DNA of 64,000 nucleotides from Calothrix sp. FI2-JRJ7. Lineage in GTDB: Bacteria; Cyanobacteriota; Cyanobacteriia; Cyanobacteriales; Nostocaceae. How positions within the stretch are numbered: position 1 is the stretch's first letter; each line of letters opens with the position of its first letter. A model generated the notes under the pieces. That model was not told the DNA's origin, searched no databases, and saw nothing but the letters and a program-made list of their open reading frames with translations. Made by a program: the position numbers and the translations under genes. The DNA is taken from contig JAHHGX010000067.1 in the NCBI GenBank assembly GCA_019359675.1, positions 161,878 through 225,877 on the forward strand, read 5' to 3'. Below are positions 12,052 through 38,058 of the stretch, piece after piece.

Positions 12052-12864
12052 ATGGATTCTTCCCACCTTAACTTTACAAATCAAAATTTGCAAAATCGCT
12101 CGTTTAAAGGACTCAATTTGAATGGCGCCAATTTTAGTGGTGCGGATATTCGCGGATGTGATTTTAGTAACGCACAGTTAAAAGATGCTAATTTTACAGA
12201 AGCCAAAATTGGTCAATCGCCAAGAGTTTTTGTTTTTGTGCAAACAATTGCGTGTATAGTAGCTATTATTACGTTTAAAGCAGTCAGTGAAATGTCGTTT
12301 GGTGTACTTGGACGCACTCCTGAAGAGTCAGCCTGGTCTTACAGTGTGGCTTTGTTTGTTAGTTTAGGGATAGCGGGGTTGTGTGCTAGTTTTAGCGGCA
12401 TTACTAAGCAAAATTCTATTTTCCAACGTTTGACTACAATTATATCCGGCGCCGCTTCTGGAGCTTTGCTTGGATTTTACTATGGTGGTAGTACTCAAGG
12501 TAATAATCCTCAAATTGCGGTGATATCGGCAGTTGTAGCGTCGTTGGTTATGGCATTTGTATGCTTTAAGTTTAAAACTGGGTTTATTACGGTTGTGGTT
12601 GCAGTTGCTGGTTGTATTGCAAATTATGGGTTTGCTTTTTTACTTAGTAGTTTGGCGTTTGCCTTTCTAAGTATTCCAAATATTTTATTAGGAAGTATTT
12701 TGATATGTCTGACTTTAATTGCTACTGTATTGACTATGCTTTGTTTACTACAGGCAGTTAAAGAAATTACTAGTGTTGGTGTTACATCATTTAAAGGCGC
12801 CAATTTATCTAATGCTAAATTTGATGGGTCTGTTTGCAACGGATACAATGGATGTAACGGATGA
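12052..12864 (+). CDS. Pentapeptide-repeat membrane protein
   Basis: 270 residues. Residues 15-55 are pentapeptide repeats (SFKGLNLNGANFSG and following A(D/N)LXX units). Then come about five hydrophobic helices, and a short second block of repeats (FKGANLSNAKFDGS) before the end. The last ten codons (VCNGYNGCNG) are encoded by a TAACGGATG-type tandem repeat, which also supplies the TGA stop. The protein therefore ends in repeat-derived residues. Function unknown; pentapeptide domains form a right-handed beta helix. Confidence 0.8.
   Translation: MDSSHLNFTNQNLQNRSFKGLNLNGANFSGADIRGCDFSNAQLKDANFTEAKIGQSPRVFVFVQTIACIVAIITFKAVSEMSFGVLGRTPEESAWSYSVALFVSLGIAGLCASFSGITKQNSIFQRLTTIISGAASGALLGFYYGGSTQGNNPQIAVISAVVASLVMAFVCFKFKTGFITVVVAVAGCIANYGFAFLLSSLAFAFLSIPNILLGSILICLTLIATVLTMLCLLQAVKEITSVGVTSFKGANLSNAKFDGSVCNGYNGCNG
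12838..12864. repeat. TAACGGATG short tandem repeat, copy inside a CDS end
   Basis: Consecutive degenerate units of AACGGAT / GTAACGGATG overlap the last codons and stop of the pentapeptide gene. Other copies are at 19160, 42773, 57756, 60264 and 60379. Confidence 0.85.
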
Positions 12865-12877
12865 GTTATTTGTCACG

Positions 12878-12906
12878 TTGCAATGTTTTTATATTTTATG
12901 TAGTAT
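12878..12906 (+). promoter_or_regulatory. Predicted promoter of the aspartyl-tRNA synthetase leader
   Basis: TTGCAA at 12878-12883 and TAGTAT at 12901-12906 are separated by exactly 17 bases. Transcription would start near 12913 and give a leader of about 236 bases. Confidence 0.5.
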
Positions 12907-12912
12907 GGTTGT

Positions 12913-13148
12913 AACTCATGGAAGAGGAAAGACCCCTCGGAGAGGTTTACTCGAACGGGAAATGTTAGTTAAGGTGATTAGCATTGGCGGTTAGTAGGGT
13001 AAAACGTATGTGCAACGATACTGCAACAAAGTGTCATGTTCATGGTGTGCTGACTTTAAGTTAACAGTGCGCGGGATGTGGAAGCTGGATGGTACCGCCG
13101 TGAATACGGTTCCAGCGAGTAAAACTTAACCCATAAGGGTTTTTTGTC
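12913..13148 (+). promoter_or_regulatory. T-box-like tRNA-sensing leader of the AspRS gene
   Basis: The strongest part is at 13084-13116. GCTGGA pairs with TCCAGC (helix A1), leaving a 7-base bulge TGGTACC (13090-13096), then GCCGT-GAAT-ACGGT (helix A2). This is the layout of a T-box antiterminator, where TGGN binds the NCCA end of uncharged tRNA. Before it, GTGTGCTG (13045-13052) pairs with CAGTGCGC (13065-13072), like Stem III. After it, AACCC-ATAA-GGGTT plus T's (13128-13146) could terminate transcription or hide the AAGGG ribosome site. Stem I and the specifier codon are not placed with confidence; AAC triplets occur at 13013 and 13025. Confidence 0.55.
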
Positions 13149-14444
13149 ATGGTACTTTGCTCAAAAAGATTTATTGCTTCGTTGGAAGCATCGTTAACTG
13201 AAGAAGTTGTGATTTGTGGATGGATACTGCATCTGCGAGAACTTGCTCGTACTACGTTTATTGTCGTCAAGGATTGTAGTGGTCAAGTGCAATGTGTTGT
13301 AGCTTCTGAGTTGGTGCGAGAATTGAAGCTCAAACTCGATGAACCTGTGGAAATAAGAGGTAAAATTAAGCCCGATAAACGAGCTAAACTTGGTTTTGAG
13401 GTAGAAGTTATTGAGATTAATGTTCTTAATCAAGTATCTGTACTGCCTTTTAATTCAAGTTCAGATATTTCTGATATTGGTATCGAAACTATCTTGGCTT
13501 ACCGTCCGTTGTCGCTGCGTCATAGTGAGATAGGTGATATTTTTCGGATACAAGCTGCTATTTTGCAATACTTTCGGCAATTTTTAGGCGCCAGATATTT
13601 TACAGAAGTAGTCACATCCAAGATAGTATCTAGGGGAACTGAGGGTGGGACAAATCTGTTTGAAATCAAATATTTTGAACGCGCAGCATATCTTGCCCAA
13701 AGTCCGCAGTTTTACAAAGAGTATGGAGTTTCAGGTCTAGAGCGAGTGTTTGAGACTGGTTACGTTTATCGTGCAGAACCTCACGCAAGTAGTAGACATT
13801 TGACGGAATACTACTCTTTAGATTTGGAAATGGGATTTATTAACAGTGCTGAAGAAGTAATTGAGTTAGAACGAGAACTACTAACGTTTGTTTTTGAGCA
13901 GTTGAACCAAAACTTTCCAAGTCAACTGAAAAATTACAGAACAAAATTACTTCCCTCAATGTTGAATGTACCCACTTGGGAATTTACAGAATGTTTAGAA
14001 CGACTCAATCATCGCTTTGGTCGTAACGACCTTATTGACGACCTAGACCCAGAAGCAGAACGTCAACTTTGCCAGCTAGCGGAAGCCGAAACAGGAATAC
14101 CAGCGCTGTTTGTAATTGGTTTTCCTTTATCTGCAAGACCTTTTTACACACACCCGCGCGGTCATGAAGGCGCCTCACAAAGTTTTGACTTATTATTTGA
14201 AGGCATTGAAATTACAACAGGTGGGAAAAGATTACACAAACGCGAAGATTTAAAACAATCCTTAACAAATCGTAATCTTAACCCCGCTTCATTTGAAAAT
14301 CATTTACAAATGTTTGAACTAGGAATGCCACCACATGGAGGACTAGCAATTGGTTTAGAACGTTTAACTTCCCGAATCTTAAATTTACCCAACGTTCGAC
14401 AAGCATCACTTTACCCACGCGACAGGTATAGAATCACACCATAA
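13149..14444 (+). CDS. aspS: Aspartate-tRNA ligase, archaeal/non-discriminating type
   Basis: 431 residues: an N-terminal OB fold ([13 protein letters not shown], then [15 protein letters not shown]) and a class II catalytic domain. Motif 2 runs through [20 protein letters not shown], with [11 protein letters not shown] after it. Motif 3 is [13 protein letters not shown] with [10 protein letters not shown] at the end. It lacks the large insertion and extension of the usual bacterial AspRS (about 600 residues), so it is the compact archaeal type, often able to charge both tRNA-Asp and tRNA-Asn. In a cyanobacterium this is probably a second, acquired AspRS. It starts just behind a T-box-like leader, with AAGGG ten bases before ATG. 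Confidence 0.87.
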
Positions 14445-37976: not shown

Positions 37977-38058
37977 TGCGGAACTCGGGACTTGAACCCG
38001 AAAGCCTTGCGGCACATGAACCTGAATCATGCGCGTCTGCCAATTCCGCCAGTTCCGC
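37977..38058 (-). tRNA. tRNA-Leu (CAG)
   Basis: Reads on the minus strand from GCGGAACT to AGTTCCGC plus discriminator A. Class II with a long variable arm. The anticodon stem CATGA/TCATG holds the loop TTCAGGT, giving CAG; the T arm is CGGGTTCAAGTCCCG. CCA is not encoded. Confidence 0.93.

Follow-up and report, generated by a model that had tools for sequence, protein, structure and literature searches.

A short-Stem-I T-box-like leader, predicted to read tRNA-Asp, upstream of an archaeal-type aspartyl-tRNA synthetase gene in Calothrix and other bacteria

The Leader and Its Locus

A leader RNA was found directly upstream of the aspS2 gene of Calothrix sp. FI2-JRJ7, encoding an archaeal-type aspartyl-tRNA synthetase (AspRS). 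By its conserved sequence and structure, this leader is most probably a class III T-box, predicted to bind uncharged tRNA-Asp and likely raising aspS2 expression. Covarying base pairs, a GAC loop, a host tRNA-Asp with anticodon GUC and G73, and co-occurrence with one synthetase family in four phyla were observed. The sensor is well supported; its output in Calothrix we infer.

The analyzed stretch of 64,000 nt, hereafter the window, is located at positions 161,878–225,877 of the forward strand of contig JAHHGX010000067.1 (assembly GCA_019359675.1). The leader region lies between an open reading frame ending at 12864 and the synthetase gene. A T-box at this place—in a cyanobacterium and in front of an archaeal-type AspRS—had been proposed from the letters alone (the original prediction). 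A full-length match to the Rfam T-box model RF00230, covariation over four phyla, and three independent model matches bear this out, and the T-box-like leader is confirmed as real, beyond chance. All of the letters on which the proposal was built were verified: GCTGGA (13084–13089), TGGTACC (13090–13096), GCCGT-GAAT-ACGGT (13097–13110), TCCAGC (13111–13116), TTAAGTT (13056–13062), AACTTAA (13123–13129), AACCC-ATAA-GGGTT (13128–13141), the T run (13140–13145), and the open reading frame (13149–14444). The locus comprises the following features:

12878–12906, + strand: putative promoter; TTGCAA (12878–12883), 17-base spacer, TAGTAT (12901–12906)
12913–13116, + strand: T-box aptamer and discriminator, the entire conserved leader RNA (RF00230, 44 bits; covariation in 19 leaders)
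12915–12944, + strand: short Stem I; counted pairs kept in 19/19 leaders
12915–12917 / 12942–12944, + strand: Stem I base helix CTC/GAG; compensatory change from U-A to C-G in one row of the alignment
12918–12922 / 12940–12941, + strand: K-turn layout of Stem I, read from the sequence; 3-base bulge (12918–12920), tandem G.A (12921–12922 / 12940–12941)
12924–12927 / 12935–12938, + strand: Stem I upper helix; compensatory change from G-C to A-U in one row
12931–12933, + strand: predicted specifier codon GAC (Asp) within the 7-base apical loop 12928–12934
12946–13003, + strand: Stem II with S-turn (loop E); helix 12946–12952 / 12997–13003
12953–12955 / 12993–12996, + strand: S-turn within Stem II, GAA opposite AGTA
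13005–13024, + strand: Stem IIA/B pseudoknot; CG (13005–13006) with CG (13016–13017), GCA (13012–13014) with TGC (13022–13024)
13029–13083, + strand: RRRNG motif (13029–13033), Stem III (13034–13037 / 13078–13081; 100% of cells paired), AA (13082–13083)
13084–13116, + strand: antiterminator/antisequestrator; helix A1 (13084–13089 / 13111–13116), helix A2 (13097–13101 / 13106–13110)
13090–13096, + strand: T-box bulge TGGTACC between A1 and A2
13128–13147, + strand: hairpin AACCC-ATAA-GGGTT with T run; its 3' side includes TAAGG, a possible Shine–Dalgarno sequence 10 bases before the start codon
13149–14444, + strand: aspS2, archaeal-type AspRS of 431 aa (NF003483), the predicted target of the leader

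Stem I, which had been described as not convincingly folded, does exist and is very short: it comprises CTC/GAG, the K-turn, and a hairpin (12924–12938) whose loop has 7 bases. The K-turn layout was read across the alignment of relatives (L017 deviates at one G.A), and the apical loop reads A-N-A-G-A-C-C in the aligned rows, being one base shorter (6) in L016. The Stem II S-turn, the IIA/B pseudoknot, and the RRRNG–Stem III–AA succession were all present in the alignment; the last matches the T-box motif as described in the available part of PMC7778990. The two-helix antiterminator/antisequestrator carries a UGGN bulge (TGGT in 11 and TGGC, as in L013, in 12 of 23 copies).

The comparison with RF00230 had been proposed as a check. 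With the leader alone and relaxed filters, the model matched over its full length (12910–13117, model positions 1–219; 44 bits, E 1.4e-8), yet the leader region yielded no match at the curated gathering threshold of 93 bits. The score is likely below the cut-off because most of Stem I is absent, while the model expects a long one: 5 bases stand in for 74 model positions of distal Stem I. The cut-off is a score threshold rather than a biological feature. Genome-wide, the leader was the sole good match to RF00230, the next best ones having 14.7 bits (E 2.25) and 14.5 bits. Folding of the single sequence, also proposed as a check, gave a result only slightly better than that of shuffles (z −1.89; 3/200 shuffles were equally good); therefore, the case rests on the comparison of relatives. 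The sub-threshold score and the modest z of the whole leader would also suit an antiterminator-like fold that arose by chance or a conserved leader of another kind, an explanation weighed below against the relatives.

Homologous Leaders and Covariation

Searching species genomes for the synthetase gave 33 loci, in 30 of which (all except L037–L039) up to 400 bases upstream were read; for L027, these were 130 bases. The same leader was found in five other Calothrix-type genomes (L007, L008, L009, L010, and L015), in Brasilonema (L011), Scytonematopsis, Oscillatoria (L013), and one Pleurocapsales contig (L014; L005 is the same contig and was not counted). It was also present in seven acidobacterial contigs, with its 3' half in an additional one (L020), as well as in one Oligoflexia contig and one Chlorobiota contig. 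The carriers thus belong to Cyanobacteriota, Acidobacteriota, Bdellovibrionota, and Chlorobiota. The Pleurocapsales copy (L014, 5744–7299) is apparently decayed: its bulge is short by two bases, and the synthetase contains an in-frame stop.

When RF00230 was applied to 25 records at E <= 1, 13 matched, 3 of these being canonical T-boxes (Firmicutes, Caldisericota). The model recognised 10 of the 18 full leaders in the other records, the acidobacterial L018 reaching 53.3 bits (E 3.8e-11); it gave no match to the decayed leader of L014.

Nineteen leaders, having letters on both sides of every counted pair, were aligned with MAFFT; L020, with its 5' half absent, was excluded, and 6 of the 19 rows are close Calothrix-type relatives. 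The tested structure of 33 pairs in 8 helices was written from the T-box plan after the alignment had been seen. Standard pairs occupied 99.0% of the 627 pair cells (6 were unpaired), while sliding the partners by 1–3 columns reduced this value to 36–51%. Covariation in homologous leaders, which the original prediction had put forward as a check, was evident: the rows share one fold, and 16 of the 33 pairs change on both sides (69 cells), with 0/500 shuffles reaching any of the five measures. Such changes occurred in seven of the eight helices; the eighth, IIA, is invariant, and its pairs are therefore uninformative. Covariation was strongest in Stem II (7/7 pairs), followed by Stem III (3/4) and IIB (2/3), one IIB pair appearing as AU, GC, CG, and UA among the 19 leaders. 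Helices A1 and A2 were paired in 100% and 98.7% of cells, respectively, each with one pair changed on both sides (in A1, from C-G to U-A in one row). RNAalifold, which does not consider pseudoknots, recovered all of these helices except IIA, plus a few extra pairs.

A covariance model, R1, was built from the 19 leaders and applied to genome samples with filters that lose weak matches. It matched 2 of 396 Acidobacteriota genomes and 3 of 368 Bdellovibrionota genomes, one match in each sample being already known; each of the three new loci (L078, L080, and the shortened L081) is directly upstream of an AspRS gene of the same family (3/3). Among 386 cyanobacterial genomes, R1 matched only the window's own genome (0/385 others). 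RF00230 had 0 matches in the same number of cyanobacterial genomes under stricter filters; this survey is uninformative because the own genome was missed too. R1 found no leader in the Myxococcota, WOR-3, Caldisericota, and archaeal loci (L024, L026, L029, L031–L036). Among three loci with canonical T-boxes, L041 (Limnochordia) was matched with 31 bits, and L040 and L042 were not matched.

The shortened Bdellovibrionota copy, of about 107 bases (L081, complement 1501–1607), has mostly lost Stem II. Still recognisable are a small hairpin containing GAC, bases resembling IIA, Stem III, and the T-box; an open synthetase frame lies downstream. This copy is possibly a further-reduced T-box or a product of decay.

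With the both-side changes in seven of eight helices and the eighth invariant, every T-box part in matching order, and all three new model matches in front of the same gene family, a chance fold or an unrelated conserved leader is hardly conceivable.

The Synthetase Gene

The aspS2 product matched NF003483 with 471.7 bits (cut-off 353); the NCBIfam name of this family is aspartate-tRNA(Asn) ligase. Its best match among solved structures was Thermus AspRS2 (1n9w, E 2.9e-93), a non-discriminating enzyme. The anticodon-contact residues are mixed and indicate neither a discriminating nor a non-discriminating AspRS. A bacterial AspRS (TIGR00459, 839 bits, 595 aa), AsnRS (TIGR00457, 659 bits), and LysRS are encoded elsewhere in the genome; aspS2 is a spare enzyme because the bacterial AspRS and AsnRS are also there.

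In a protein tree of 32 sequences, from which L030 (reading frame broken), L036, and L006 had been removed after the first tree, the 10 cyanobacterial AspRS formed one group (100/100). A group of 23 sequences, with all sampled leader carriers except L030, was separated from the 9 others (100/100); its Myxococcota member is without the leader. Among 20 loci compared, with queries from 9 loci, the synthetase was the only widely shared gene among the matches listed; the other matches listed were frames inside the synthetase gene or were shared by pairs or triplets of loci or within cyanobacteria. It had been suggested that the leader and the gene were acquired together, and both the tree and the lack of any other widely shared gene across the loci support this. 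The two look like a two-part cassette. Their widely scattered joint occurrence, the tree, and the absence of another shared gene fit a joint transfer, one or several and in either direction.

Only 3 of 291 genomes of the cyanobacterial order, the own one included, hold a relative of the synthetase at E <= 1e-90, and in one of the two besides the own genome this relative is only 40% identical. A distant archaeal-type AspRS with about 40% identity was noted in a cyanobacterium of the same order (G200; L006, 1501–2781); the 400 bases upstream of it contained neither a TGGNACC motif nor an R1 match. Archaeal-type AspRS in plasmid records were at most 43.9% identical (11 records).

Which tRNA Is Read

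GAC is present in the Stem I loop of all 21 leaders with the hairpin, and the gene encodes an AspRS. The invariant loop bases contain three frames—AGA (Arg), GAC (Asp), and ACC (Thr)—and GAC was taken as the specifier because AGA and ACC do not suit an AspRS gene. Conservation alone cannot prove this choice since the flanking loop bases are nearly invariant too. The base following GAC is C; known T-boxes prefer a purine after the specifier codon.

The host tRNA-Asp gene, found by a similarity search, has the anticodon GUC (L068), G73 by reading of the gene, and no encoded CCA. G73 was likewise read in tRNA-Asp of the hosts of L007, L009, L012, L013, L017, and L021. The UGGN bulge complements G73 of the cognate tRNA, UGGU by wobble and UGGC by Watson–Crick pairing. 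The earlier caveat, according to which the bulge best fits a tRNA with A73, falls with these readings, and A73 as a required partner was ruled out.

Two further tRNA observations concern the same genome. A compact array of 14 tRNA genes (L070, 1496–3010) contains another tRNA-Asp (GUC), whose anticodon arm differs. In the window, ARAGORN detected a tRNA-Leu (CAG) at 37977–38058 on the minus strand, where the Rfam tRNA model at threshold was silent.

A non-discriminating AspRS, together with GatCAB, provides a route to Asn-tRNA described for Thermus, Deinococcus, and Clostridium. The leader might accordingly sense tRNA-Asn, with aspS2 encoding such an enzyme; the family name in NCBIfam, the closeness to the Thermus structure, and the host tRNA-Asn, which also has G73 with U1-A72 (by reading), would agree with this. 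So would a Clostridiales locus (L028), in which a canonical T-box with a long Stem I (104 bits) upstream of an archaeal-type AspRS gene has AAC near the specifier position (by reading). Nevertheless, AAC occurred in none of the 21 Stem I loops of our leader and AsnRS is present in the genome, the mixed anticodon-recognition positions not being decisive; we consider sensing of tRNA-Asn quite improbable, and tRNA-Asp is retained as the predicted ligand. The T-box of L028 (3666–3998) appears to be followed by the 3' half of a second one with a terminator, perhaps a tandem arrangement.

Promoter and Output Step

The transcript is predicted, from the sequence, to start at or adjoining 12913, i.e., at the T-box itself. 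Among 21 leaders, 13 (including 10/10 cyanobacterial ones) are preceded by a −10-like hexamer (at least 4 of 6 consensus bases) at a distance of exactly 6 bases from the first leader base. A general promoter scan missed TTGCAA/TAGTAT because it has only 8 of the 12 consensus bases; the sites reported by that scan were no more numerous than in shuffles.

As long as tRNA is absent, a T-box should by default be off. The hairpin at 13128–13141 of the window copy does not overlap the antiterminator, which ends at 13116, and the predicted fold with both has −20.1 kcal/mol vs. −12.7 without the antiterminator. The AACCC/GGGTT hairpin and the antiterminator do not overlap in any of the six Calothrix-type copies, and in those folded to the start codon (window, L007, and L009) the antiterminator was favoured by about 7–8 kcal/mol. 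Because the two fold together, the role of the hairpin as an off-switch is putative. The original prediction had also offered a switch by pairing of TTAAGTT with AACTTAA; this is fully paired in the window copy only, all five close relatives (L007, L008, L009, L010, and L015) having TGAAGTT with one mismatch, and it was rejected.

These folds could also mean that the leader is a T-box by descent whose window copy no longer switches, the output competitor having been lost and the gene being constantly on. Decay of this kind of leader does occur, as the shortened bulge, the in-frame stop, and the missing RF00230 match of L014 indicate. At the same time, all six Calothrix-type copies retain the loop codon and the hairpin with T6, their synthetases are without internal stops (6/6), and only 6 of the 627 cells in the whole alignment are unpaired. 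Loss of switching is considered unlikely, and a working T-box remains the preferred reading.

As a separate observation, the bulge sequence GGTACC (window 13090–13096) can pair with the start-codon region ATGGTACT (13149–13156) in several folds of Calothrix-type copies, and a similar pairing of CACC with GGTG (in ATGGTG) was seen in Brasilonema (L011). In the Calothrix-type copies, this modelled pairing is suggestive.

When folded from A1 to the decision point, and also with coding sequence attached, the loci of other hosts differ in the part following A1. The decayed L014 has a hairpin with a T5 tail, and the 3' arm of this hairpin is able to pair with the end of A1. L013 has the clearest terminator-like hairpin of an intact locus; it carries T4, shares two bases with A1, and for the most part can coexist with the antiterminator. 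In L012, the pairing partner of the antiterminator's GGTTCC is GGAACC, close to the probable start codon. In seven of nine acidobacterial loci (L016–L020, L022, and L023; not L030 or L078), a hairpin starts at the last GC of A1; overlapping it by these two bases only, it covers a GGAGG-like ribosome site before the start codon (in L019, ACG takes the place of ATG). This Shine–Dalgarno pairing was read by eye and from folds, and its poor alignment was not counted. On and off energies were close in Acidobacteriota: −26.8 vs. −28.3 in L018 and −17.1 vs. −17.3 in L020. Of the 18 loci folded (L080 excluded), 14 favoured the antiterminator state, contrary to the off state expected of a T-box without tRNA, and four (L012, L018, L020, and L022) favoured the competing state.

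Proposed Mechanism

According to the prediction, uncharged tRNA-Asp is bound by the leader at two places, GAC of the Stem I loop and the UGGU bulge. The codon loop would pair with the anticodon, the Stem II S-turn steadying this pair as in the solved ileS T-box, and the free NCCA end would stabilise the antiterminator, which a charged tRNA would not do. Binding would then likely raise the expression of aspS2 directly downstream. The least certain step is the output in Calothrix-type copies. Its target may be the AACCC/GGGTT-U6 hairpin, which abuts the start codon and masks UAAGG; the mode of action could be termination, concealment of the ribosome site, or both. Since a standard bacterial AspRS and AsnRS are already in the genome, the switch would add a second AspRS as charging of tRNA-Asp falls, either from aspartate shortage or from inhibition of the resident AspRS.

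A broader reading is possible, though we hold it tentatively: an aspartate class III T-box and a spare AspRS may form a mobile cassette across Cyanobacteriota, Acidobacteriota, Bdellovibrionota, and Chlorobiota. Its output would be adapted to the host: some cyanobacteria would combine an ultrashort Stem I with a transcription terminator, and Acidobacteriota would use a hairpin over the ribosome site. Its enzyme would be an inducible rescue when the resident AspRS is blocked, e.g., by microcin C-like inhibitors. As a rule, transcriptional T-boxes need a long, elbow-binding Stem I; a terminator controlled with an ultrashort one would, if true, run against this rule. Microcin C-like compounds inhibit AspRS (PMC9239234), and spare synthetases can protect against inhibitors (PMC9437257), as stated in the available parts of these sources; a protective role of aspS2 against AspRS inhibitors is a guess by analogy.

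Comparison with Known T-Boxes

The following sources are cited from the parts available. T-boxes, which raise expression when their tRNA is uncharged (PMC7583486), are known mainly from Firmicutes, Actinobacteria, Chloroflexi, and Deinococcus-Thermus, with few in proteobacteria (PMC2494555, PMC3766115). PMC2494555 gives 0 T-boxes in 13 cyanobacterial genomes, and according to PMC3766115 T-boxes are confined to Firmicutes, Actinobacteria, Chloroflexi, and Thermus/Deinococcus, with Geobacter cited from earlier work. Chlorobi is not a new phylum for T-boxes because a hisS T-box in isolated Gammaproteobacteria and Chlorobia is mentioned in PMC2965389. No connection between T-boxes and cyanobacteria is made in the available parts of PMC11477304 and PMC9413887. 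The words cyanobacteria and acidobacteria are absent from the available main text of TBDB (PMC7778990), where the class II model was used for Actinobacteria and for those class I matches that have a truncated Stem I. In the literature on T-boxes with cyanobacteria, Acidobacteria, AspRS, or a short Stem I, as far as its available parts go, we failed to find a T-box from Cyanobacteriota, Acidobacteriota, or Bdellovibrionota; earlier detection is possible.

Our data point to a minimal T-box form in these three phyla and in a Chlorobiota contig, beneath the cut-off of the standard model, and suggest that a tRNA sensor can travel with its gene. The short-Stem-I architecture, so far represented by ileS, would extend to a second amino acid, aspartate. 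The leader also offers a testable system for the minimum RNA needed to decode a tRNA and for the suitability of a short Stem I in transcriptional regulation.

The duplicated AspRS and GatCAB genes of Clostridium acetobutylicum are reported to be under T-box control (Saad 2012, 2013, as cited in PMC4206432). Our leader resembles this case in preceding a duplicated AspRS gene, whereas the related Clostridiales L028 has a long Stem I instead. With canonical class I T-boxes (RF00230), the leader shares the K-turn, the Stem II S-turn, the pseudoknot, RRRNG–Stem III–AA, and the UGGN bulge, and its match spans the model from end to end; it differs in that the specifier side loop and the elbow-binding part are missing (74 positions reduced to 5 bases).

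Four T-box classes are distinguished in PMC10482949 (available in part). In class III, exemplified by Nocardia farcinica ileS, Stem I is short and devoid of the distal motif, its apical loop of 5–6 bases bears the specifier, and Stem II is required. These characters are present in our leader, the loop of 7 bases (6 in L016) being slightly outside the described 5–6. In detail, as far as the available parts of PMC10482949, PMC10651847, and PMC7583486 describe the ileS type, both have a short Stem I with a K-turn and an apical-loop specifier, lack the distal T-loop motif, and share the Stem II S-turn, the IIA/B pseudoknot, Stem III, and the discriminator. The leader differs from class III ileS in having GAC (Asp) in place of an Ile codon, a loop of 6–7 bases, C after the codon, hosts outside Actinobacteria, and, in the cyanobacterial L013 and the decayed L014, terminator-like hairpins.
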